Shown here: positions 1-13,354 of the stretch, piece after piece | Numbering within the stretch: the first letter of the stretch is position 1 | How the letters are laid out: each line of letters starts with the position of its first letter | Source: Nitrospirota bacterium | GTDB lineage: Bacteria; Nitrospirota; Thermodesulfovibrionia; Thermodesulfovibrionales; Dissulfurispiraceae | Reading direction: 5' to 3' | Assembly: GCA_021847795.1 (NCBI GenBank) | Contig: JAJZPZ010000013.1 | Coordinates: 1-41,028 of the forward strand | Length of the DNA: 41,028 bases | Program-made: the position numbers and the translations under genes | The notes under the pieces: model-generated | Databases searched by the model: none | The model's input: the letters and a program-made list of their open reading frames with translations, nothing else | What the model was told of the DNA's origin: nothing

Positions 1-105
1 AAAGCGCAGTCTGAGTGCATCCTGCAGTTCCCTGTACTGTTCTGCCAGTTTAACGATGAAATGGCCACTCCTTAACATGAGCGATTGCTCCTGTGTCTGA
101 TACAT
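1..105 (-). CDS. N-terminal fragment (runs off the window) of a GNAT/OlsB-like acyltransferase
   Basis: Minus strand reads AAGGAGGGAGCGTTT-ATG followed by MYQTQEQSLMLRSGHFIVKLAEQYRELQDALRLRF. Strong SD; the 'G.x.VKLAE...E...A..LR.RF' pattern resembles OlsB/hemolysin-like acyltransferase N-termini. Not in the supplied ORF track. Confidence 0.5.
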   Translation of the reverse strand, partial: MYQTQEQSLMLRSGHFIVKLAEQYRELQDALRLRF

Positions 106-257: not shown

Positions 258-632
258 TCAAAGGGCAGAGGGCATGGTTTTCCTGTCGTTCAGCAGCAGG
301 ATGAGAAATGGGGCTGCCGGCAGCAGGGTCACAGCGATGACCTGTACAAAGAGCGTAATCAAGATTAACGGAGCTCCGGGGATTAAGACGATCAGTCCGG
401 CACTGATAAGCGTTATAAAGTAATTTGCATAGAACCATGGGGCCTCTTTGATTTTATTATTCAGTGAATGGGCCCAGCCGAACACCTCCCCAAAGGCCCA
501 GGAGCTTGCCAGGGAAATGCAGATCGCACCCAGGAGTCCTGCATCAAAGAGGCCGATGGCCATAAAAGTACCAACATATTTATTGGTTTTCATGAGCATG
601 CGGGAAGCCTGCGCCGCACTGTCTACATCCAC
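258..632 (-). pseudogene. Internal fragment of an NRAMP-family divalent metal transporter
   Basis: Translation contains NRAMP-like ASSWAFGEVFGW...FYANYFITLISAGLIVLIPGAPLILITLFVQVIAVTLLPAAPFLILLLNDR. GTG start is immediately preceded by in-frame TAA; ORF ends just after the LLLNDR motif, so both flanks of a normal NRAMP are missing. Confidence 0.6.
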
Positions 633-695: not shown

Positions 696-1136
696 TCAGG
701 AAAAAACCTTTTCCGTTTTTTTTAACCATTCCTCTATAGTTCTTTTTATCTGATTTCTGATCTCCCTGGTTTTCTCCAATTTCTCTTCATGCGAACCAGT
801 GAGAGCAGAGGGGTCTTCAAAGCTCCAGTGCAATCTCGTCAGCTGTCCTGGATAGACAGGGCAGCGCTCTGCACTCGCCTCATCGCAAACAGTGATTACG
901 TAGTGAAACAATCTCCCTTCCTTATAAAACTCAAACGCGCTTTTTGTTTTCTTATCTGCGATATCAATGCCGGCCTCTTTCATTACTTCAACGACAAGAG
1001 GATTGAGCGCGCCGGGTTTTAGCCCGGCGCTTTCCGCTTCGAACCTGTCTCCTCCCAGTGCATTCAAAAAGGCCTCTGCCATCTGGCTGCGGGCGCTGTT
1101 ATGTATGCAAACAAAAAGGACTTTTATTTTTTCCAT
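696..1136 (-). CDS. arsC: Arsenate reductase, LMW-PTP fold, thioredoxin-coupled type
   Basis: N-terminal [15 protein letters not shown] (CX3NX2RS P-loop) and downstream [18 protein letters not shown] with the two resolving cysteines. Confidence 0.88.
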
Positions 1137-1194
1137 CGTCTTTACTCCCGGAGAATATGAATTTTATCATTTTATAATTGAATTCCTTGTTTTT

Positions 1195-1449
1195 TTAAGG
1201 CACACGCTTGCCGTTTCTCCTCTTTTCCAGGAGGTGAGCTACCCTTCTGCGGACCAAAACCGGCAGAAAAGGCCTGATCTTCGAATCCTTCTCAAATCTT
1301 TTCAGTACGCTCCAGTAAAGCCTGCTGACTTCTTCTAACGGCACTCCAAGATCCATGGAAAGCTTCTCAATTGCGCCGTAAGGCTGACTCTCTTCTGCCT
1401 CATTGCCACCGTCCGGTGTGCCATCAGAACTATTCATCGGAAAGTCCAT
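1195..1449 (-). CDS. DUF3562-like small protein
   Basis: [53 protein letters not shown] matches the DUF3562 pattern; 9 nt downstream of the metK-like gene. Confidence 0.6.
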
Positions 1450-1458
1450 TCTGTATAA

Positions 1459-2652
1459 TCAGGGAAGTGAAAGCAGGTGGACTTTGTCGGTTATTTCCCA
1501 GGGCAGGCCGATGTCCATTCTTCCTACATGGCCGTAAGCTGCAAGTTTTTTGTAAAAGCCTCCTTTCACAAGAGAGGGGAGATGCCTCAAATTGAATTGC
1601 TTTACAATCCCTGCAAGCCTGAAATCGATATGCCTGCCAAGGGCGCCTGCGATTTTGGCATCTGATATCTTCCCTGTGCCGAACGTCTCCACCTGGATAC
1701 TGACTGGCTGGGGAAGACCGATAGAGTAGCTGAGCTGCACCTCGCACTCGGCAGCAAGGCCTGCAGCCACTACATTTTTTGCTGCGTAACGTGCAATGTA
1801 AGCACCGATTCTGTCTATGCGCATGGGATCTTTGCCGCTGAGAGCAGCACCGCTGTGGCGCGAGTATTCTCCGTAGGTGTCAATAGCGTTTTTCCTGCCG
1901 GTCAGTCCTGCATGGACCGACGGACCGCCTGTTATGAAAGGCCCGTCGGGATTCACGAATATCCGTGTGTCCTTATCGGGTTTGACCGGCTCATCATAAA
2001 ATACGCTGTCGATCACTGCTTCTTTAATATCATCACTGAAACTCTTCACATCAGGCTCGCCGTCTTTATTCTGGCTCGCTATTACGGCAATGCTGTGTAT
2101 TCTGTAAGGAATACGGTTTCTGAATTCAATCCCTACCTGCGTTTTTCCGTCAGGCGCGAGGTAAGGGAGTATTTTCTGGAGCCTCACCGAGGTAAGCTTT
2201 CTTGCGAGCTTGTGGGCAAGCCAGATGGGAAGGGGCATAAAAGCAGGGGTGTGATTGCAGGCAAATCCAAAAACCGTCACCTGATTTCTGACCGGGATCT
2301 TCTGTATCTCTTTATCAGTGAGCTCCCTTTCATCGAAACAGCAATTTCGGTCTTCCGGAAGCTCTCTGAGACTTGTCAGAATACTGCAGGTCTTGTCGTT
2401 AAAGGCATGCTGGTTATAGCCTATCTGGTTTATGACCTGCCGGGCTATATTGGGGAAGTCAACCCTGGCCTCCGAGGCAAACCGCGCAGCAATGAAAACT
2501 ATGGACGTGGATACCGCGCATTCGGCAATGACTCTTGAATAAGGGTCTTGCTGGAGAAAATGGTCCACAATGGCATCGCTGATCAAATCGCAGAGCTTGT
2601 CGGGATGTCCTTCTGTGACGGATTCTGACGTGAACATGAAGTCTTTTTTCAT
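1459..2652 (-). CDS. Divergent methionine adenosyltransferase (MetK) paralogue
   Basis: 397 aa with GHPDK, PDGKTQV, GLTGRK, SGKDPMRIDR, AARYAAKNVVAAGLA-type and AYGHVGR motifs of MetK; but GGE, GDQG and GGPxGD motifs are altered (see findings). Confidence 0.85.
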   Translation of the reverse strand: MKKDFMFTSESVTEGHPDKLCDLISDAIVDHFLQQDPYSRVIAECAVSTSIVFIAARFASEARVDFPNIARQVINQIGYNQHAFNDKTCSILTSLRELPEDRNCCFDERELTDKEIQKIPVRNQVTVFGFACNHTPAFMPLPIWLAHKLARKLTSVRLQKILPYLAPDGKTQVGIEFRNRIPYRIHSIAVIASQNKDGEPDVKSFSDDIKEAVIDSVFYDEPVKPDKDTRIFVNPDGPFITGGPSVHAGLTGRKNAIDTYGEYSRHSGAALSGKDPMRIDRIGAYIARYAAKNVVAAGLAAECEVQLSYSIGLPQPVSIQVETFGTGKISDAKIAGALGRHIDFRLAGIVKQFNLRHLPSLVKGGFYKKLAAYGHVGRMDIGLPWEITDKVHLLSLP

Positions 2653-2752
2653 GTATAACCTCTCTTCCTTTCTCGTTGTGAAAGATTTACGGTAAGAACA
2701 CTGCCGGGGCCTGCAGAAAGATTTGAGATAAAGGATATTCTCAGGATATTGT

Positions 2753-5700
2753 TCATGACTTCCGTGTCACCTGTAGCTGCGTTTGTTTGCTTTTTGTGCC
2801 CTCATTGATAAGGAGAGGAATGGTTGCGCCCCCCCCGACCACAAGGGCATCGACAAGATTAATGGGAGAAAGCCCCAGGAGGCTTCTCAGGCCGGGAATT
2901 GCCAGCGTCAATACCTGCAGCGCCATTGACCCTCCGATAGCCAGATCCAGATATCTGTTCGGGGGTAGTTTTCCCTTATCAAAAATACTGGTATTCTCCG
3001 AGCGGCAGCTGAGCGCGTGGAGCAGCTGGCTTGAGGTAAGCCCCATAAATGCCAACGTGCCGGCCCTCGGTCCGATTCCATACCGCATGATTCCATACCC
3101 GTATGCCCCGAGCGTGCCGGCGCTTATTACTCCTGACTCAAAAGCGATCCTTTTGAAGTCCGATGTCTTGATAATAGGATCTTCAGGAGACCTTGGCGGC
3201 CTGCTCAGCACATCGGGCTCAGGGGGTTCCAAGGCAAGGGCAAGCCCCGGGAATATATCCGATATCAGGTTGATCCAGAGGAGCTGCATGGCGTTCAGCG
3301 GCTGCCCCATGCCCCCTGCGATTGCAGTGAACATCACCATGATTTCACTGATGTTTGTAGACAGGAGGAAGTGCACCGACTTTCTTATATTGTTGTAAAT
3401 GGTACGCCCCTGGCTTACTGCAATAATCATGGTCTCAAGGTTGTCATCCTCAACCACGATGTCAGCCACTTCACGGGCGACATCAGTGCCTGTGTGTCCC
3501 ATGGCAACTCCTATATCAGCTGCCTTGAGCGCCGGACCGTCGTTTATCCCGTCGCCCGTCATGGCAACTACCCTGCCTGTGCCCTGAAGGGCCTGAACGA
3601 TCTGGAGCTTATGGGCCGGGCTGACCCTCACAAAGACATGGACGCGCTCGCATAATGCCTTCATCACCGCTGGATCGATATTTGCGAGATGGGTTGAATC
3701 AAGGATTTCGAGCTGCCCGCCGTTACTCAGGTTCAACTCCTTGCCGATAGCGTATGCCGTTGGGCTCTGGTCTCCGGTTATCATTACCGTTTCTATCCCG
3801 GACTGATGGAAAAGTCCCATCAATTCTCTTACGCCTTTTCTTATCGGATCCGCCATCCCGATGAGTCCCAGCCAGACAAAACCGCTTTTCATATCAAAGC
3901 CATCGTCGCCGTTTTCCATGTGAAAATAGGCAAGGCCGAGCACTCTTAGTGCATCGCCGGCCATCCTCTCGTTTTCCGTTTCGATAGCGTACCGGTCGTC
4001 ATTGGTGAGAGGCGCCTTCCTGCCGTCCCGGATATGCCAGTTGCACATGGAGAGCACTTCACCAGGGCTTCCCTTAAGGGCTATGATCTTGCTCTGCCCG
4101 ATGGAGCTGTGAAGGGTGCTCATGTAATTCCGGTTTTCAGAGCGATGACTTATTTTCAGGAGGGGGAACTTTTCCCTGAGCTCCAGGATATCAACGCCTG
4201 CAGATATAGCCATGTGGATCAGCGAATTCTCCGTGGGAGAGCCGCGAAGAACATACTTACCCTCATCGTCCTCGTAAGATGTTTTCCTATCAGGACCGTG
4301 CCTCGGGTCGTCCTGCATACCGATGACTTCAGTTTCGTTGCAGAGGACAGATACATGAATGAGCCTGAGAAATTCTTCGAATGCGTAGGGATTGATGATC
4401 TCCGCGCCCGAGAAAAACCTGCCTTCATCCAGTGTCACCCTTCTCATCCCTGTATGGATGGAGACTACCGACATCCTGTTCATCGTGAGGGTGCCGGTCT
4501 TGTCAAGGCATATGGTCTGAACAGACCCGAGGGTCTCTACTGCGTCGAGATGGCGGATAAGGACATTGTGCCGTTTCATGTTCCTGATCCCGAGAGCGAG
4601 TGTTGTTGTAGCAACCGTTGGCAGTCCTTCGGGGACTGCTGCTACAGCAAGGGATATCGAGGTCTTCAGCATCTGGAGAAAGCCGTAGCCCCGAAGAAGC
4701 CCGATGACAAAGACAAGACCGCAGACAGCTCCGCTGATGACAACCAGTTGGGTTCCCATGGTACTGAGCTGCCTTTCCATAGGGGTTTCAGGCGGCTGCG
4801 CTTCTCCCACAAGGGTCTGGATTCTGCCTATCTCCGTATATTTTCCCGTTGCCACAACTACTGCGAGCCCCTGTCCGCCCGTAACCAGCGTCCCCATGTA
4901 GACCATATTAAGCCTGTCTGCAAGTAGGATATTCCTGTCCGCAACGGCCTGTAGGGTCTTGATGACCGGCAGGCTCTCACCGGTCAGGGCGGATTCATCA
5001 ACGCTCAAATGACTCGTCTCGATCAACCTGCTGTCGGCGGCAATATAGCTTCCGGGCCTGAGCACCAGGATATCCCCAATGGCCACTTCATCGGCAGGTA
5101 TTTCTTTAATGAATCCTTCTCTTTTCACAAGGGAGGATGGTCTGACAAGGCTCTTGAGGGAATGGATGGTTTTTTCCGCCTGGCTCTCCGTTACGTAGCC
5201 GATAACCGTGTTAATGGCAACAACGCTTACGATGACCACGGCGTCTGCAAGGCCGCCGGTGAACAGGGAGAGGCCGGCTGCAACGCCGAGCAGGGCGTTC
5301 GGTATTGAGTTGACCTGACCAAAGAGAATGCTGAAGGCTGAACGGGGCACTGATTCCGGCAGGAGATTCGGCCCGTATTTCATTAAATTGCGCTGTGCCG
5401 ACTCGCGTGTTAGTCCTGAGTCCCCTGTGACTTCCAAACGGTTCAGAACATCTGAAGGCTCCAGGGCATGCCATGCTTCAACTGCCTGCTCTTCAGCGCT
5501 GCCGACAAGCTTCCGGATTTTCTCCCTGCTTTTAATCCTGACATTTTTGACTGCCCTTGACAAATCAATCGTGCGTTGGGGACGATCGCCCTGTTTCCCG
5601 GCACGCAAACCCTCTTGCTTGAAGCTGCCGGGAAAAGATGGGGAAGCGCCATTCCTGTATTTCCGGACAAAATCCCTGATAAGCGCTGCAACGGTATCGT

Positions 5701-5884
5701 GGGTATTATCAGAATTGAAAAGGACGAGGATACTTCCCGTCGATGTATTGATTGAAATACGACTTATTCCCTTTTTATGAGAAAGGCCGGATTCAAGGTG
5801 ATGCTTGAGGGCGTCAGAACGATAGAGACCATCAACCTTGTATCTGGCCCTTCCTTTTACAACAGTGTGTATTGCCTGAACCAC
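2753..5884 (-). CDS. P2-type cation-transporting P-type ATPase with N-terminal HMA2-like domain
   Basis: 1043 aa; VDESALTGES, AAVPEGLPTV, DKTGTLT, MTGDGINDGPALKAADIGVAMG, LLWINLISDIFPGLALALEPPE; N-terminus HTVVKGRARYKV...SINTSTGSILV resembles HMA2 domains. Confidence 0.93.
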   Translation of the reverse strand: MVQAIHTVVKGRARYKVDGLYRSDALKHHLESGLSHKKGISRISINTSTGSILVLFNSDNTHDTVAALIRDFVRKYRNGASPSFPGSFKQEGLRAGKQGDRPQRTIDLSRAVKNVRIKSREKIRKLVGSAEEQAVEAWHALEPSDVLNRLEVTGDSGLTRESAQRNLMKYGPNLLPESVPRSAFSILFGQVNSIPNALLGVAAGLSLFTGGLADAVVIVSVVAINTVIGYVTESQAEKTIHSLKSLVRPSSLVKREGFIKEIPADEVAIGDILVLRPGSYIAADSRLIETSHLSVDESALTGESLPVIKTLQAVADRNILLADRLNMVYMGTLVTGGQGLAVVVATGKYTEIGRIQTLVGEAQPPETPMERQLSTMGTQLVVISGAVCGLVFVIGLLRGYGFLQMLKTSISLAVAAVPEGLPTVATTTLALGIRNMKRHNVLIRHLDAVETLGSVQTICLDKTGTLTMNRMSVVSIHTGMRRVTLDEGRFFSGAEIINPYAFEEFLRLIHVSVLCNETEVIGMQDDPRHGPDRKTSYEDDEGKYVLRGSPTENSLIHMAISAGVDILELREKFPLLKISHRSENRNYMSTLHSSIGQSKIIALKGSPGEVLSMCNWHIRDGRKAPLTNDDRYAIETENERMAGDALRVLGLAYFHMENGDDGFDMKSGFVWLGLIGMADPIRKGVRELMGLFHQSGIETVMITGDQSPTAYAIGKELNLSNGGQLEILDSTHLANIDPAVMKALCERVHVFVRVSPAHKLQIVQALQGTGRVVAMTGDGINDGPALKAADIGVAMGHTGTDVAREVADIVVEDDNLETMIIAVSQGRTIYNNIRKSVHFLLSTNISEIMVMFTAIAGGMGQPLNAMQLLWINLISDIFPGLALALEPPEPDVLSRPPRSPEDPIIKTSDFKRIAFESGVISAGTLGAYGYGIMRYGIGPRAGTLAFMGLTSSQLLHALSCRSENTSIFDKGKLPPNRYLDLAIGGSMALQVLTLAIPGLRSLLGLSPINLVDALVVGGGATIPLLINEGTKSKQTQLQVTRKS

Positions 5885-5890
5885 ACGCTC

Positions 5891-6541
5891 TTACTTTCCT
5901 TTTCTGCTCTTTGCCTGTGCTGCAGAGGGTTCAGTCTGGCGGGGCTTTGGGAGAGCGGCATTCGCAACCTCCTTCACTCCTTCGACCACTCCGACAAGCA
6001 TGTCCTTAACAGCCCTTAACGCAGTGTTGCCGATAGTTCCGGCCGTCTCGATTGCGCCATTGACCGCCACCTGGGCAACCTCTTCCACATTACCCCCTAC
6101 TTCTTTGGTTGCCTCGATAACGCCGTCAACAGCTCTCCGGGCCACAAGTGCCACATCCGCGCCGACCTCAGCAGCCCCTTTCACAGCGCCTTTTACCGTC
6201 TGGCTGGCAACATTTGTTACGTCCCCGCCTATATCACTTATGCCCATAACAACACCTTTCGCCACACTCTTTGTGCTCAATATGAGGCCTGTGCCCACCT
6301 CCTCGGTGGCTTGGATGGTCCCCTTAACGATATCCCTCGTAACGATAAGACCCTCGGTGGCTGCTTCTCCTGTTGCTTTCATGGCATTGGAGACGGTATT
6401 TCTTACAAGGCTGACTATTTCAGCCTCTATCTCGTTGATGCCCTTGAGACTGCTGATAATCCCTTCTTTGACCGTTGATCCTGCTTTCCCAATCCCCTCG
6501 TTTCCGATGCCCTCTGTAATGGGTGTTGTTTTGCCAGCCAT
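5891..6541 (-). CDS. Amphipathic repeat protein (seven tandem 22-aa repeats)
   Basis: Residues 45-198 divide into seven 22-residue units, e.g. VASQTVKGAVKGAAEVGADVAL / VARRAVDGVIEATKEVGGNVEE / VAQVAVNGAIETAGTIGNTALR. Stop is 6 nt upstream of the ATPase start. Confidence 0.8.
   Translation of the reverse strand: MAGKTTPITEGIGNEGIGKAGSTVKEGIISSLKGINEIEAEIVSLVRNTVSNAMKATGEAATEGLIVTRDIVKGTIQATEEVGTGLILSTKSVAKGVVMGISDIGGDVTNVASQTVKGAVKGAAEVGADVALVARRAVDGVIEATKEVGGNVEEVAQVAVNGAIETAGTIGNTALRAVKDMLVGVVEGVKEVANAALPKPRQTEPSAAQAKSRKGK
5948..6409 (-). repeat. Coding region of seven degenerate 66-nt (22-aa) tandem repeats
   Basis: Manual alignment of the 216-aa translation, residues 45-198, with no gaps. 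Confidence 0.75.
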
Positions 6542-6586
6542 AGTAGCCTCCCTTGTTGATCGCTCTTAAAACGCTTCTGGGTTTGC

Positions 6587-7096
6587 TTATAGAACAACTG
6601 CAGATGCGGCTTCTTCTGCTCCTCCTGCGTCATGAGGCAGTGCTTTCAGGAATATATTCAATGCATACCAAAAAGCGGTATACCATGCAGGTGCCATAAA
6701 GTTCCCTATGCTGATCTGGTACATACCCATGCCCAGGAGCGCCAGAAATGCCAAGCCCGGGACATCCAGCTCATCGCCGGTAAAGGCCTTGATTTTTTTA
6801 TCGAAATCTCTAAAAGATTTTACGACCTTGCTCGACAAGGAAGCTGCTTTGTGCTTTGGGTTCTCAAGCCTGAACAGGTTATTGGCTTCAGCGTATTGTG
6901 CGATTGTCTGTGTTTCAAGTGAATGTAGAAAAAGTGCACTGCCGGTCACGGCGTTTACCGAGAGCGTATCAATACCCTGATAGCGGGAGAAATGCTCAGC
7001 CAATGAAGAAAAGTAAGATGAATCCCCTTTCCTCGATAAAACCTTCACTCTCAGTCTTCCCGGGGTCTTATGGCATATCGTGGCTACCGGCAGCAT
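6587..7096 (-). CDS. HMA2-like domain plus C-terminal membrane segment
   Basis: N-terminus ICHKTPGRLRVKV...LSVNAVTGSALFLHS (HxxPGRxR motif); hydrophobic VPGLAFLALLGMGMYQISIGNFMAPAWYTAFWYALNIFL. ATG directly follows the TGA of the upstream gene (TGAATG). Confidence 0.75.
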   Translation of the reverse strand: MLPVATICHKTPGRLRVKVLSRKGDSSYFSSLAEHFSRYQGIDTLSVNAVTGSALFLHSLETQTIAQYAEANNLFRLENPKHKAASLSSKVVKSFRDFDKKIKAFTGDELDVPGLAFLALLGMGMYQISIGNFMAPAWYTAFWYALNIFLKALPHDAGGAEEAASAVVL

Positions 7097-7396
7097 TCAG
7101 ACTCCTGTCCCTTGCCCGGCCTCTTTTTCAAGATTCTCTGCCATGGCCTCTCCATGCATTTCCGCCATTTCTGCTTTTACTTCAGCCAACAGATCTTCAA
7201 CCACCTCTCCGACCTCCGCAGCCGCTTCCTTTCCTTTTTCGAAAAGAAGAAACCCGCCTTTTATAGCAGCTTTAGCAACAGGTTTTACAATTCCTGACAG
7301 GGCAGGAATCACTGCAGGAGCAAGTACCGCTGCGCCAATGCCGATGGCAAGTCCCGTCAGGATATTGCCTTTTAAGCCATTCTCTAAAAGTCCCAT
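7097..7396 (-). CDS. DUF5132-like small membrane protein
   Basis: MGLLENGLKGNILTGLAIGIGAAVLAPAVIPALSGIVKPVAKAAIKGGFLLFEKGKEAAAEVGEVVEDLLAEVKAEM; start moved to 7396 because GGAGGA lies just upstream of that ATG. Confidence 0.7.
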   Translation of the reverse strand: MGLLENGLKGNILTGLAIGIGAAVLAPAVIPALSGIVKPVAKAAIKGGFLLFEKGKEAAAEVGEVVEDLLAEVKAEMAEMHGEAMAENLEKEAGQGTGV

Positions 7397-7445
7397 AATG
7401 TCCTCCGAAGCCGTTAGTAAATAGATATAGCTAAAAGCCATCTCG

Positions 7446-7476
7446 CAAATGCCTTAATTTAAGTATATCGCATTTG
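7446..7476. promoter_or_regulatory. Candidate operator: inverted repeat CAAATGC-N17-GCATTTG
   Basis: Perfect 7-bp inverted repeat in the divergent intergenic region, about 50-80 bp upstream of the 7396 start. Confidence 0.3.
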
Positions 7477-7680
7477 GAGATAAGTAGTATGAATTTGACT
7501 GACAACTATAGAAATATATCGAAACCGTTGCTCCCCTAACATCCTCGCCATGAATACTATGCGGGTGTTTCATCCTTGCGGGCATCCTCCATTTTGTTGA
7601 AACAGTGCTTCTGTGGCAGTTTCTATTCATCTTTGTTATAAATGCCGGACAGACAATTTGTCTATAAATATTTTCATTAC

Positions 7681-7711
7681 TTGCCTAAAAGGGCTGTCAC
7701 GGGAATATAAT
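7681..7711 (+). promoter_or_regulatory. Candidate sigma70-type promoter for the plus-strand HMA2-like gene
   Basis: TATAAT at 7706-7711 preceded by TTGCCT at 7681-7686 (19-bp spacer), 68 bp upstream of the 7779 ATG. Confidence 0.35.
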
Positions 7712-7778
7712 CCTGAATTCATCTTATTGTAAAAGTGATATGGTTAACTTTACTCAGCAAGAAGACAGGGAGGGTCAC

Positions 7779-8045
7779 ATGATTGTCTATAAAGTAAAAC
7801 ATCACATACCGGGACGTATCAGGATAGAAGTGCCTTCACTAAAAAAACTTTCTTTGATGGATCTGAAGAGTCTCCTTTCTGTTATTACCCTGCTTCCTGT
7901 GCCCGCCGGCATAAAAGACGTCAGGCCGAACCTGCTGACTTACAGCCTGGTCATCGAATACGATCCGAAAATAATAAACGTAATAGGGTATGTGGAAGAG
8001 ATAGCTTCAAACAAGGACCTCATGAATACTCTCGGCAAGGAGTGA
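7779..8045 (+). CDS. HMA2-like domain protein
   Basis: MIVYKVKHHIPGRIRIEVP...NLLTYSLVIEYDPK; HxxPGRxR motif; start at 7779 preferred because GGGAGG precedes it. Confidence 0.75.
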   Translation: MIVYKVKHHIPGRIRIEVPSLKKLSLMDLKSLLSVITLLPVPAGIKDVRPNLLTYSLVIEYDPKIINVIGYVEEIASNKDLMNTLGKE

Positions 8046-8052
8046 ATACAAT

Positions 8053-8241
8053 ATGGGTGCAGGAACTGTAAAAGAAGAGCGGTCTTTTCAACGGACTTAC
8101 TACAAGGCATTGAAGTGTCCCCACCTCTCTAAATCCCTGGTTTACATCTGCAGGGGATGCAGCCCTCCCTATGTCCCAAGCTCATTTCAACGGGAAGAGT
8201 ATTGCACAAGAAAACAGCATAAAAAATGTCCATTCTTTTGA
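8053..8241 (+). CDS. Small cysteine-rich protein
   Basis: 62 aa with C-X10-C-X2-C-X14-C-X7-C; SD AAGGAG overlaps the end of the preceding gene. Confidence 0.55.
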   Translation: MGAGTVKEERSFQRTYYKALKCPHLSKSLVYICRGCSPPYVPSSFQREEYCTRKQHKKCPFF

Positions 8242-8269
8242 GTGCCCCTTCTCTGGTGTAACTTAAACT

Positions 8270-8311
8270 TCATTATGGTGTCATTATGCCGTAATGCCAC
8301 CTCCGTATAAT
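8270..8311 (+). promoter_or_regulatory. Candidate regulated promoter: 11-bp-spaced direct repeat, palindrome and perfect -10
   Basis: TCATTATG at 8270-8277 and 8281-8288 (11-bp period); imperfect palindrome GGTGTCATTA-TGCCG-TAATGCCACC at 8277-8301; TATAAT at 8306-8311. Confidence 0.4.
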
Positions 8312-8419
8312 AAAAACAGTCGGCTTCGGACATAAACGTCGTTTTATCGGAAGGCGAGTATTTTTAGGGCGACGACGGAAACAAAAGCCAACAAAGACTT
8401 TAACGCCAAGGAGGCACTG

Positions 8420-8689
8420 ATGGACAATACTGTCATAATCAAAATTGAGAGCGGAGTTGTTGCCGACATTTACTCCACGGAACCGGTAAAGATAATTGTT
8501 GTGGATTATGATTTGATCGAGGGAGACGAGACTTTTGAGCGTCGCTGTCAAAAAGCAGTACTCTCTATGGTCCCTGACTGCTATGTCAAACCGGAGGATA
8601 TCGATACTGCTGTCTCATCATTGGTTGAAGAATGCGTCAGACCTGCCCGGCGCCGGCCGCTCGGGACTATCGTAAAAACCGCAGCCTGA
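8420..8689 (+). CDS. Hypothetical protein
   Basis: 89-aa ORF MDNTVIIKIESGVVADIYSTEPVKIIVVDYDLIEGDE...; AAGGAGG just upstream of ATG. Confidence 0.6.
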   Translation: MDNTVIIKIESGVVADIYSTEPVKIIVVDYDLIEGDETFERRCQKAVLSMVPDCYVKPEDIDTAVSSLVEECVRPARRRPLGTIVKTAA

Positions 8690-8792
8690 AGATCTCTCTG
8701 ATCAACAAAAGCCTGCTCATTCTTCTCTATCTTAAATCTCCATGGTACAATAAAAGCAAGGGCAGGCTTAAATATATTCAGGAGGGCTATGT

Positions 8793-9188
8793 ATGGAGGG
8801 AGTCAACAAGCTTATAAAGGAAATCGAAGACGGGGTGAAGCAGAGTATCGACGCAGTTAAAGCCAAGATAACGCTGGTTATTGAAAAGGCTGATGAGTTG
8901 ACAGAAGGAGGGAAAAAGCAATATCGTCTTTATGAACTCAAAAACAGGCGCCAGGGCCAGTTTTCAGCCATCGGGGAGGAACTGCACCAGTTGGTGGCTG
9001 AGAAAACCCTGCGCATCTCAAACCAGAAACTAAAAAACCTCCTCTCGGCTATTGACAAGACGAACTCCGAGATAGCCAGGCTGGAAGGCAAGACTTCAAA
9101 GGCAACGTCAAGAAAAACCCCCAGAAGAACAACTCCTGTAAAGCCGAAAACAGCAGTCAAAAAGAAAGCAGACCTTAAAGCAGTATAG
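8793..9188 (+). CDS. Hypothetical helical protein with Lys/Arg/Thr/Pro-rich tail
   Basis: 131 aa; helical N-terminus and SKATSRKTPRRTTPVKPKTAVKKKADLKAV tail; AGGAGG upstream of ATG. Confidence 0.65.
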   Translation: MEGVNKLIKEIEDGVKQSIDAVKAKITLVIEKADELTEGGKKQYRLYELKNRRQGQFSAIGEELHQLVAEKTLRISNQKLKNLLSAIDKTNSEIARLEGKTSKATSRKTPRRTTPVKPKTAVKKKADLKAV

Positions 9189-11377: not shown

Positions 11378-12021
11378 TCTGTTTCCGCACAGATCATCCT
11401 GTTTTGTTCGGATCTCCTCTGGGACCTGCGCCTGAAATGCAATACCAAAAAGAAAAGTATTATCAGTATTGCCACGACAATGGCGATGTGTCCAGGATGA
11501 AAAAAGGCTTTTCGGAAATGCTGAAGCTGATGCTCCCCGGCATAGCCTATGGCAAACATAACCGGAACGGTAATAAGAGCGGCAACGGCATCGGCTGCAA
11601 GAAATTTATGGGGCGGCATGCCCATCACTCCTGCTGTTAAAAATATCTTAGCCCTGACCCCCCAGATGTGCCTGCCGAACAGAATGAGGAGAGTCCCGAA
11701 TTTTTTGAATTTCCTCTCAAGAGAAAAGAGCCGTTCTGAAGAAAGGATCTTCTGGAATTTTTTATGGGTAATAATGAGCCTGCCGTACTTTCTCCCGAAA
11801 GAAAAAATAATGAAATCGCTTGCTATGACCCCTATATATGCCACGATAGCCGCCGGGACAAGCTCCAGGTAGTTTTTGGAAATAAGAAAGCCGCATAAAA
11901 CAAGGATGGCGTCTTCGGGAACAGGCAGCCCTATGCCCCCAAGGATAAAAAACGCAAAAATTCCCGGATAAGAAAATTGTTCAATAAGCGCAAGGAATTG
12001 ATGCTTCGTTCCTATGTCCAT
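11371..12021 (-). CDS. DedA/SNARE-associated family membrane protein
   Basis: FFILGGIGLPVPEDAILVLCGFLISKNYLELVPAAIVAYIGVIASDFIIFSFGRKYG...GRHIWGVRAKIFLTAGVMGMP; start moved to 12021 (TGGAGGAAG upstream). Confidence 0.8.
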   Translation of the reverse strand: MDIGTKHQFLALIEQFSYPGIFAFFILGGIGLPVPEDAILVLCGFLISKNYLELVPAAIVAYIGVIASDFIIFSFGRKYGRLIITHKKFQKILSSERLFSLERKFKKFGTLLILFGRHIWGVRAKIFLTAGVMGMPPHKFLAADAVAALITVPVMFAIGYAGEHQLQHFRKAFFHPGHIAIVVAILIILFFLVLHFRRRSQRRSEQNRMICAETEC

Positions 12022-13354
12022 CTTCCTCCACGGTTCCACTCTGTCTGAAAGCCGACAGCGCTTTATAGTCGGGCGCTGATCTCCCGTTAAAGAAGCCGCA
12101 GGCAGAGGAATAGCGAAGATCCTCCAGCCAGAGCCCGATATATGCACGATCCTTGAGGACTCGTTCAAAAAAAGCAACGGGCCGGGAAAAAAGGCTTTGC
12201 AATGGCCCGAACAGTTCCGACGGATCACGGAAGCATTCCCAGTCACACTTCTTGCATGATGCGCCTTCGTTGCCGTTTCTTAAAACAGGGCCCCAGAATT
12301 TCCCCAGATTTTCATCTCCCCTGTATCCGCAAGGGTATGTATTCCCCCCTTTTGCATCTACAAAGAAAAAATCGATGCCGCCCCTGCAGGGATAGCAATA
12401 CTCCTCCCCTACGGTGTATTGCCTCAATAAGGAATACAAGGAGCTTCTCGGTGAGAATATCCTTATTTTTGAACGGAACTCGGGTATGGTGTCAAAGAGC
12501 GCCTTGAACACCAGGGATTTCTCATCAGGGCTGAACTGGATCAGCGGTGCCTCAGAAGAGGCGCCGTATACGGCGTGAAGGCCATCTGTGCTGCCAGGTT
12601 CAAGGCTCATGGGATAACAGGCATTGACCATGGTAAACCCGAGATCTATCGTCGTCATGTAGAATTTCCTGAAGGCCTCTCTCATTGACTTGTAGAAACG
12701 CAGGGAATTCGACACATCAGGTAAAGGGAAGCCCCCTGTATTTCTGTTGATCCCGAGGTTGGCGGAGGGGTATATCCCATGCTTATGAAATATGGGCAGG
12801 GCTTTCTTTATACCCGCAACAACTCCGGGAAGGCCCCTCATTTCTTCGTGAACAGCAGCATCTGCCGAATCCATACTGATCCAGAAATTATAAAGTCCTG
12901 TAGCAGCGAGGATCTCAGCAATTCTTGTGATCTTTGCTTCATAATCGGGCTTGTGGGAGTTCATGAACAAAAAACCGTTCGTGCCTGTCCGTGTGTACCT
13001 GATTCCCGCATCTCCGGCGTATTGGATGAGTTCTACTATTTCATAAAAGTATAAAAAAGGTTCTCCCCCGGTAAAGGAGACAGCTTGCATCCCCTTCTTC
13101 CGTGCAGAATCTATGATCCTCTTGACGACATCACTGTCCAGCCTGGAGCGCCTGAAAGACTCGGTTATTCGCATGCCGCACTGCGGGCACCGGGCATTGC
13201 ATCGGTCGGTATATTGGATAACAAGCTGGCCGGGCATTCTGCCAACCAAAAGAGGGAAAATGGCCTGAAAGGTCTTCAGGGATTTCAGCCTGCCCCTTAT
13301 GTCTGAAATAGCTCTTTCTCCTTTATACTTTTCCCCTTGCTCTGTGAAGGACAC
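11981..13354 (-). CDS. Radical SAM protein
   Basis: QYTDRCNARCPQCGMR (CX3CX2C), SFTGGEPFLY, C-terminal cysteines (CKKCDWECF). Start uncertain (GTG in ORF track). Confidence 0.85.
   Translation of the reverse strand: MSFTEQGEKYKGERAISDIRGRLKSLKTFQAIFPLLVGRMPGQLVIQYTDRCNARCPQCGMRITESFRRSRLDSDVVKRIIDSARKKGMQAVSFTGGEPFLYFYEIVELIQYAGDAGIRYTRTGTNGFLFMNSHKPDYEAKITRIAEILAATGLYNFWISMDSADAAVHEEMRGLPGVVAGIKKALPIFHKHGIYPSANLGINRNTGGFPLPDVSNSLRFYKSMREAFRKFYMTTIDLGFTMVNACYPMSLEPGSTDGLHAVYGASSEAPLIQFSPDEKSLVFKALFDTIPEFRSKIRIFSPRSSLYSLLRQYTVGEEYCYPCRGGIDFFFVDAKGGNTYPCGYRGDENLGKFWGPVLRNGNEGASCKKCDWECFRDPSELFGPLQSLFSRPVAFFERVLKDRAYIGLWLEDLRYSSACGFFNGRSAPDYKALSAFRQSGTVEEDGHRNEASIPCAY

Follow-up and report, generated by a model that had tools for sequence, protein, structure and literature searches.

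In ferrosomes, encoded by fez genes, small membrane proteins accompany a P-type ATPase, and metal is possibly stored together with phosphate. A related partnership is known for the PacL proteins (DUF1490), which scaffold P1B pumps, and for the related DUF6110 proteins, which accompany P1B6 pumps (PMC9374683, PMC13043812). Here, we analysed a stretch of 41,028 nucleotides (the window, to which all coordinates refer) from contig JAJZPZ010000013.1 of a Nitrospirota bacterium (Dissulfurispiraceae; GCA_021847795.1). It carries a compact cluster of genes for a DUF5132 protein, a small HMA2 protein (HMA2a), an amphipathic repeat protein (Rep), a P2-type ATPase with an N-terminal HMA2 domain and a paralogue of the S-adenosylmethionine (SAM) synthetase MetK. 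This core is widely conserved in bacteria and appears to encode an undescribed membrane machine for metal and phosphate; in the open-access collection that we searched there was no mention of DUF5132 or of "HMA2 domain-containing" proteins. We see about an even chance that its products form a platform in the inner membrane, similar to a PacL effluxosome, which pumps Ca2+ or Mn2+ with associated phosphate chemistry.

As an earlier note on this DNA had described, seven tightly spaced open reading frames run in the same direction on the minus strand (696-7441) and face a divergent HMA2 gene on the plus strand (7740-8045). The gaps amount to 58, 9, 100, 6, 45 and 0 nt, the last one being a TGAATG junction at the DUF5132/HMA2a boundary. 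Pfam assigns the minus-strand genes to LMWPc/ArsC, DUF3562, MetK (three domains), HMA_2 combined with Cation_ATPase_N, E1-E2 and Cation_ATPase_C, HMA_2 and DUF5132; Rep has no Pfam family above cut-off, and the divergent gene (HMA2b) is matched by HMA_2.

To follow this arrangement in other organisms, a Rep alignment was scanned against 84,980 species genomes, which yielded 112 relatives, and all locus counts are taken from the best 80 of them (L074-L153). These 80 loci span five phyla, namely Nitrospirota, Thermodesulfobacteriota, Myxococcota, Planctomycetota (Brocadia, Loosdrechtia) and Pseudomonadota (Nitrosospira, Nitrosovibrio, Thiobacillus and others). Considering only loci with enough flanking DNA, DUF5132 lies upstream of Rep in 65/71 and HMA2a in 59/71, while the ATPase follows downstream in 55/64 (45 co-directional, 10 convergent) and MetK in 53/62. 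Rearranged operons also exist, in which MetK-ATPase is convergent to DUF5132-HMA2-Rep. The co-occurrence outside this genome on which the proposal of the earlier note depended is therefore broad, and synteny across many genomes rules out chance or a lone operon.

Within the Nitrospirota, DUF5132 is present in 36 of 296 genomes (24 genera), and an identifiable P-type ATPase gene adjoins it in 35 of these 36 neighbourhoods, the exception being L043. The loci fall into two classes by pump type. The larger class has the order DUF5132, HMA2a, Rep, HMA2-P2 ATPase and MetK, after which CorA, DUF3562 and ArsC are often found. In the second class (genome families f27 and f30), which the earlier note had overlooked, DUF5132 stands beside a Cys-less, HMA2-bearing P1B-like pump, and 10/10 of these pumps have DYGTG where P1B pumps usually have CPC, together with GRxR HMA2 motifs. 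Loci of this second class are L051, L054, L057-L059, L061 and L063-L066, and some of them also contain a CAX-like exchanger. On an unannotated Microvirga megaplasmid (pMVF16-1; L183, 8062-14742), two DUF5132 genes accompany HMA2 genes and an HMA2-P2 ATPase of 41% identity. Because no match to Rep or MetK was found at this locus, the irreducible core is DUF5132, HMA2 and an HMA2-bearing pump. A plasmid search with Rep itself gave no match. On a Gloeothece plasmid (L184, 3899-9381), genes for a P1B pump, DUF1345, DUF5132 and a 522-aa HMA2 protein are consecutive.

The central component is the pump (2753-5884, minus strand), which Pfam, NCBIfam, the closest PDB chain and its ion ligands identify as a P2A-type ATPase with PEGLP and SERCA ligands. 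Among NCBIfam models, those of PMR1-type and SERCA-type Ca2+ pumps come closest, with scores under their equivalog cut-offs, and the closest solved structures are SPCA1 (a Ca2+/Mn2+ pump of the Golgi; the best PDB chain), LMCA1 and SERCA. Across an alignment of 58 full-length relatives, the residues corresponding to SERCA E309, N768, E771, N796 and D800 (E419, N844, E847, N872 and D876) are kept without exception and the one corresponding to T799 (position 875) is Ser/Thr in 57. We take E309, N796, T799 and D800 to form site II and N768 and E771 to belong to site I. The cluster pump thus shares its core and ion ligands with SPCA1/PMR1 and SERCA, and in having the site I residues N768/E771 it is like SERCA and unlike SPCA1. 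It differs from all of them by its N-terminal HMA2 domain, in which GRxR is invariant (58/58) and CxxC is absent, by a Gln at the position of SERCA E908, the sole examined SERCA-type ion ligand that is lost, and by an invariant His in transmembrane helix 8 (His956). From the ion-ligand residues, the predicted substrate of the pump is Ca2+ or Mn2+. The cluster ATPases, all with HMA2, also form a separate group (45-79% identity), whereas the other P2 pumps encoded in these genomes mostly reach no more than 41% identity and, lacking HMA2, begin only behind that region; the second P2 pump of the window genome, on contig C264, falls outside the group as well. An ordinary Ca2+ pump is ruled out by these differences, and the clustering with housekeeping calcium pumps that, according to the earlier note, would have refuted its proposal is not observed.

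The second enzyme of the core, the MetK paralogue (1459-2652, minus strand), was characterized by its three MetK domains, a residue table and a tree. The window genome has another, housekeeping MetK that is 48% identical to the cluster copy. Likewise, 22 of 23 cluster genomes combine a cluster MetK (64-100% identity to that of the window) with a separate copy at 45-48%; in the remaining genome (G075), such a separate copy is the only one. In the tree, a single clade with a support of 100/100 unites the cluster copies, separated by the said 45-48% identity from housekeeping MetK. The variant is co-inherited with the pump: it occurs in 25 of 292 Nitrospirota genomes, always adjoining the pump and always among the 27 genomes with an HMA2-P2 ATPase, and in none of the 265 others (Fisher p ~4e-34, ignoring phylogeny). 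A spare housekeeping copy is ruled out by the separate clade, the co-occurrence with the pump, the second MetK in the genomes and the rebuilt residues described below.

For these residues, 68 cluster MetK sequences and eight housekeeping copies were mapped on E. coli MetK (MG1655). Cluster MetK resembles methionine adenosyltransferase MetK in its fold, its HPDK loop and its K+/Mg2+ and triphosphate residues: H14, D16, K17, E42, K245, K265 and D271 are kept in 68/68, D163 in 67 and K165 and R244 in 66, so that of this set, which is otherwise kept in 66-68 sequences, only K269 is changed (Arg in 68/68). In human methionine adenosyltransferase, the residues that hold methionine are Glu70, Gln113 and Asp258, and those that position ATP are Asp179, Ser247, Arg249 and Phe250 (PMC7271947). 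It is the methionine- and adenosine-binding residues and the gating loop that are replaced in the cluster enzyme. E55 is lost in 68/68 (Arg in 55), D238 is His in 68/68, and Q98 is lost in 66/68, although its loop is gapped and this column is less sure. R229 has become Pro in 50/68, with Arg not among the residues listed for 64/68, and T227 is mostly Asp/Glu. The replacement residues are themselves conserved, whereas 8/8 housekeeping copies keep the original ones. Hydrolysis of tripolyphosphate is separable from SAM formation (PMC6850014). Since the methionine and adenosine sites are rebuilt and the triphosphate/metal site is kept, a feature overlooked in the earlier note, it is unlikely that cluster MetK makes SAM. 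The change from acidic to basic residues in the methionine pocket favours an anion there, and the predicted substrate is phosphate, tripolyphosphate or polyphosphate.

Two other explanations have to be weighed against these data. In the first, the locus would be a plain metal-tolerance efflux operon with a Ca2+/Mn2+ pump and chaperones, in which MetK is a metal-resistant SAM-synthetase isozyme and ArsC provides arsenate tolerance. ArsC, CorA and NRAMP neighbours speak for it, as does a MetK that keeps the triphosphate, Mg2+ and K+ residues and passes the NCBI metK cut-off. However, the methionine/adenosine residues are replaced across the 68 MetK sequences, a normal MetK is encoded elsewhere in the genome, and ArsC occurs in just 9/80 loci, so that we regard this explanation as unlikely. 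In the second, the substrate of the pump would be a different one, e.g. Fe2+ or some further divalent metal, and an adenosyl or other group would be transferred by the MetK variant to a different acceptor such as a platform component. The invariant His956 together with the E908 to Gln exchange could indeed shift selectivity, and the conservation of the new MetK pocket residues implies that some ligand is bound; but the loss of R229 and S/T227, two residues that position ATP, argues against an adenosyl-donor reaction, and we consider this second explanation quite improbable.

Besides the two enzymes, the core comprises three small proteins. The DUF5132 protein (7097-7396, minus strand; PF17195, 5.5e-13) has 99 aa counted from a start that is almost certainly Met16 (window 7396), which is invariant in 46 homologues, and not from the upstream start assumed before. 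It consists of one N-terminal transmembrane helix (peak hydropathy 2.28) with a Gly-rich face, followed by a Glu/Ala-rich helix, which confirms the small single-helix membrane protein of the earlier note. HMA2a (6587-7096, minus strand; PF19991, 2.1e-13) is an HMA domain with a C-terminal two-helix membrane hairpin; in the AlphaFold2 model (predicted local distance difference test score 84.5) an HMA fold is followed by a helical hairpin, and Foldseek matches the HMA domains of ATP7B, MerP and HMA7 (prob 0.99-1.00, E >0.01). Among its homologues, [x]RxR is found in 63/66 and CxxC in 0/66, so the cluster HMA2 proteins show the trait of the HMA_2 family, an HMA fold with GRxR replacing CxxC. The (H)xxxGRxR motif that had been noticed in three proteins is seen in the ATPase (HTVVKGRAR), HMA2a (HKTPGRLR) and HMA2b (HHIPGRIR).

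Rep (5891-6541, minus strand) is built of eight 22-residue amphipathic helical repeats. Its hydrophobic period is exactly 11/3 (3.667 residues; power 26 versus 0.9 in shuffled sequences, a value reached by 0/500 shuffles) and its best self-match lies at lag 22, as expected from the 22-mer repeat already recognized. The repeat region contains neither Cys nor aromatic residues, and homologues are 47-80% identical. Helices with an 11/3 period are typical of lipid-surface binding, and apolipoproteins, perilipins, synucleins and phasins share the 11/22-residue amphipathic periodicity with Rep but no significant homology: Phasin_2 reached at best E 0.0016 in 9/21 members, below cut-off, and similarity to Senescence was also weak and below cut-off. 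With the AlphaFold2 model, most Foldseek hits were to designed proteins of helical repeats or to generic helical bundles, which is uninformative. Rep is presumed to be a coat or scaffold at a membrane or other surface.

With these features, the locus can be compared to PacL. The DUF5132 protein resembles PacL in its N-terminal transmembrane helix, the Gly-rich face, the Glu/Ala-rich helix and the association with a P-type ATPase (PMC9374683, PMC13043812). Moreover, its Lys9 is at the position of the conserved Lys9 of PacL; the conserved glycines, in contrast, are 17 and 20 in PacL and 19 and 21 in DUF5132. Unlike the metal-binding tail of PacL, the C-terminus of the window protein and its aligned homologues has no conserved His/Asp cluster. 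In comparison to PacL/CtpC, the cluster has DUF5132 instead of DUF1490/DUF6110, a P2 pump, extra HMA2 proteins, Rep and the MetK variant. A detectable homology of DUF5132 to DUF1490/DUF6110 was not found by hmmscan. The DUF6110 profile matched none of 292 Nitrospirota genomes, but none was matched in the controls either, and plasmid records contained DUF5132 in a cyanobacterium and no DUF1490/DUF6110. The cluster resembles ferrosomes in that small membrane proteins go together with a P-type ATPase, and possibly in metal-phosphate storage, but the pump is P2A and not of the P1B6 FezB type, Rep and the MetK-like enzyme are added, and no DUF4405-like cytochrome, such as the FezC of some fez systems, occurs among the cluster genes and the neighbours scanned. 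By the features tested, the cluster is not a member of either fez or PacL. The analogous assembly with a P2-type pump that the earlier note had proposed therefore holds in so far as the set is conserved and includes Cys-less HMA2 proteins, a PacL-like protein and an amphipathic repeat protein.

A link to phosphate is further suggested by neighbouring genes that had escaped the earlier note. In 16/80 Rep loci, the neighbourhood of the cluster includes at least two Pst/PhoU genes, mostly divergent and after an HMA2b-like gene (in L116 on the opposite side), and in L129 PstS, PstC and PstA directly follow a pump-less Rep. The Pst genes are of two types, with ~60-100% versus 25-35% identity to PstC/PstA of L033, which suggests that they joined the cluster repeatedly. 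Other pump-less Rep loci adjoin TerC (L115), MntP (L119), NRAMP (L118) or CDF (L112), families that include manganese transporters. Both kinds of neighbour are suggestive, not conclusive, hints of function. The guess at phosphate in the earlier note gains support from the retained triphosphate site of MetK and the recurrent Pst/PhoU operon, with the substrate itself being a prediction.

Another reading is a membrane-bounded storage compartment of the ferrosome or acidocalcisome type, in which the pump would load Ca2+ or Mn2+ into Rep-coated vesicles and the MetK-derived enzyme would handle polyphosphate or phosphate as the counter-ion, either within the vesicle or on its surface. Such a compartment would account for the coat-like 11/3 protein conserved at 47-80% identity, the basic pocket of the rebuilt MetK, the Pst/PhoU neighbour and the membrane hairpin of HMA2a. 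Nevertheless, the sequence indicates no vesicle, a ferrosome-type cytochrome and a P1B6 pump are missing from the locus, and some clusters lack Rep, which makes storage an unlikely though real alternative. Scarcely better, in our estimate, are the prospects of the broader proposal of an undescribed metal-phosphate compartment or platform in five phyla, where Rep and DUF5132/HMA2 shape and organize the membrane, Ca2+ or Mn2+ is loaded by the P2 pump and the MetK descendant processes polyphosphate or phosphate; we hold it to be rather unlikely.

In the PacL-like platform that we favour, the pump would take Ca2+ or Mn2+, as a hard divalent cation, from the cytosol to the periplasm or a vesicle lumen. 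The Cys-less HMA2 domain of the pump and the separate HMA2 proteins with two transmembrane helices may act as docking modules, while DUF5132 would cluster and stabilize the pump, in the role that PacL has for CtpC. The 11/3 helices of Rep could coat or curve the membrane surface. The MetK-derived enzyme, having presumably lost SAM synthesis, would most likely act at the platform on an anion such as tripolyphosphate or polyphosphate, and through this enzyme metal movement may be linked to Pst-supplied phosphate. Several points weigh against the platform. The pumped ion is deduced from residues, and an hmmscan of 30 DUF5132 members up to E=10, as far as the HMMER filters permit, revealed no DUF1490/DUF6110. 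Five genomes (G062, G134, G150, G174, G268) keep pump and MetK with no detectable Rep, which is thus not strictly required, and G075 has the cluster without the cluster MetK. Conversely, Rep is also found without the pump, including near exopolysaccharide-type genes (L201). Finally, Pst adjacency is essentially confined to Nitrospirota, where shared ancestry may explain it.

Rep copies outside the standard order were seen elsewhere, too. L115, L133 and L142 contain DUF5132 and Rep and no pump, with a membrane-like protein of ~184 aa and no Pfam family between the two in L115 and L142. Genomes G227 and G058 have extra Rep copies away from any P2 pump, one of them near exopolysaccharide-type genes. 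The second Rep copy of G058 stands beside a gene for a Cys-rich radical-SAM-like protein (L203:6961-8274, minus strand), which by eye is similar to one encoded at 11981-13354 (minus strand) of the window, within a few kb of the cluster.

The remaining genes around the core are less constant. A small helical DUF3562 protein (1195-1449, minus strand; PF12085, 2.5e-8) is a frequent accessory in 22/80 loci, and an occasional one, in 9/80, is the protein of ArsC/LMW-phosphatase fold (696-1136, minus strand; PF01451, 2.3e-17), whose arsC_pI258_fam score of 114 bits is under the cut-off of 174.3. Just past ArsC lie the remnant of an NRAMP-type Mn2+/Fe2+ transporter (273-632, minus strand), which matches residues 264-384 of 422 and is 83% identical to the full NRAMP adjoining the Rep gene in L118, and the start of a GNAT acyltransferase-like gene (1-105, minus strand), the like of which is also found beside the cluster in relatives. 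On the other side, HMA2b (7740-8045, plus strand, likely start 7779; PF19991, 6.5e-8) is a divergent small HMA2 protein present in 24/80 loci, and in relatives it comes before a small Cys protein and then the Pst operon. In the window, HMA2b is followed by such a small Cys-containing protein (8053-8241, plus strand), 49% identical over 45 aa to family F13, a recurrent neighbour in 13/80 loci. The plus-strand frames 8420-8689 and 8793-9188, which the earlier note had counted as members, do not belong to the conserved set. RNA elements were not found in the window.

If the platform exists, scaffolding of P-type ATPases would be a general principle in bacteria, with the same module of Cys-less HMA2 and DUF5132 on two unrelated classes of pumps, and the pumping of divalent metals would be linked to phosphate. 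The cluster MetK would then represent a new branch of MetK enzymes with a predicted non-SAM function. This also concerns annotation, because the score of the window MetK exceeds the NCBI metK equivalog cut-off and such variants would be named SAM synthetases despite their rebuilt methionine site. With Nitrosospira, Nitrosovibrio and Desulforhabdus, cultured hosts make the gene set testable.

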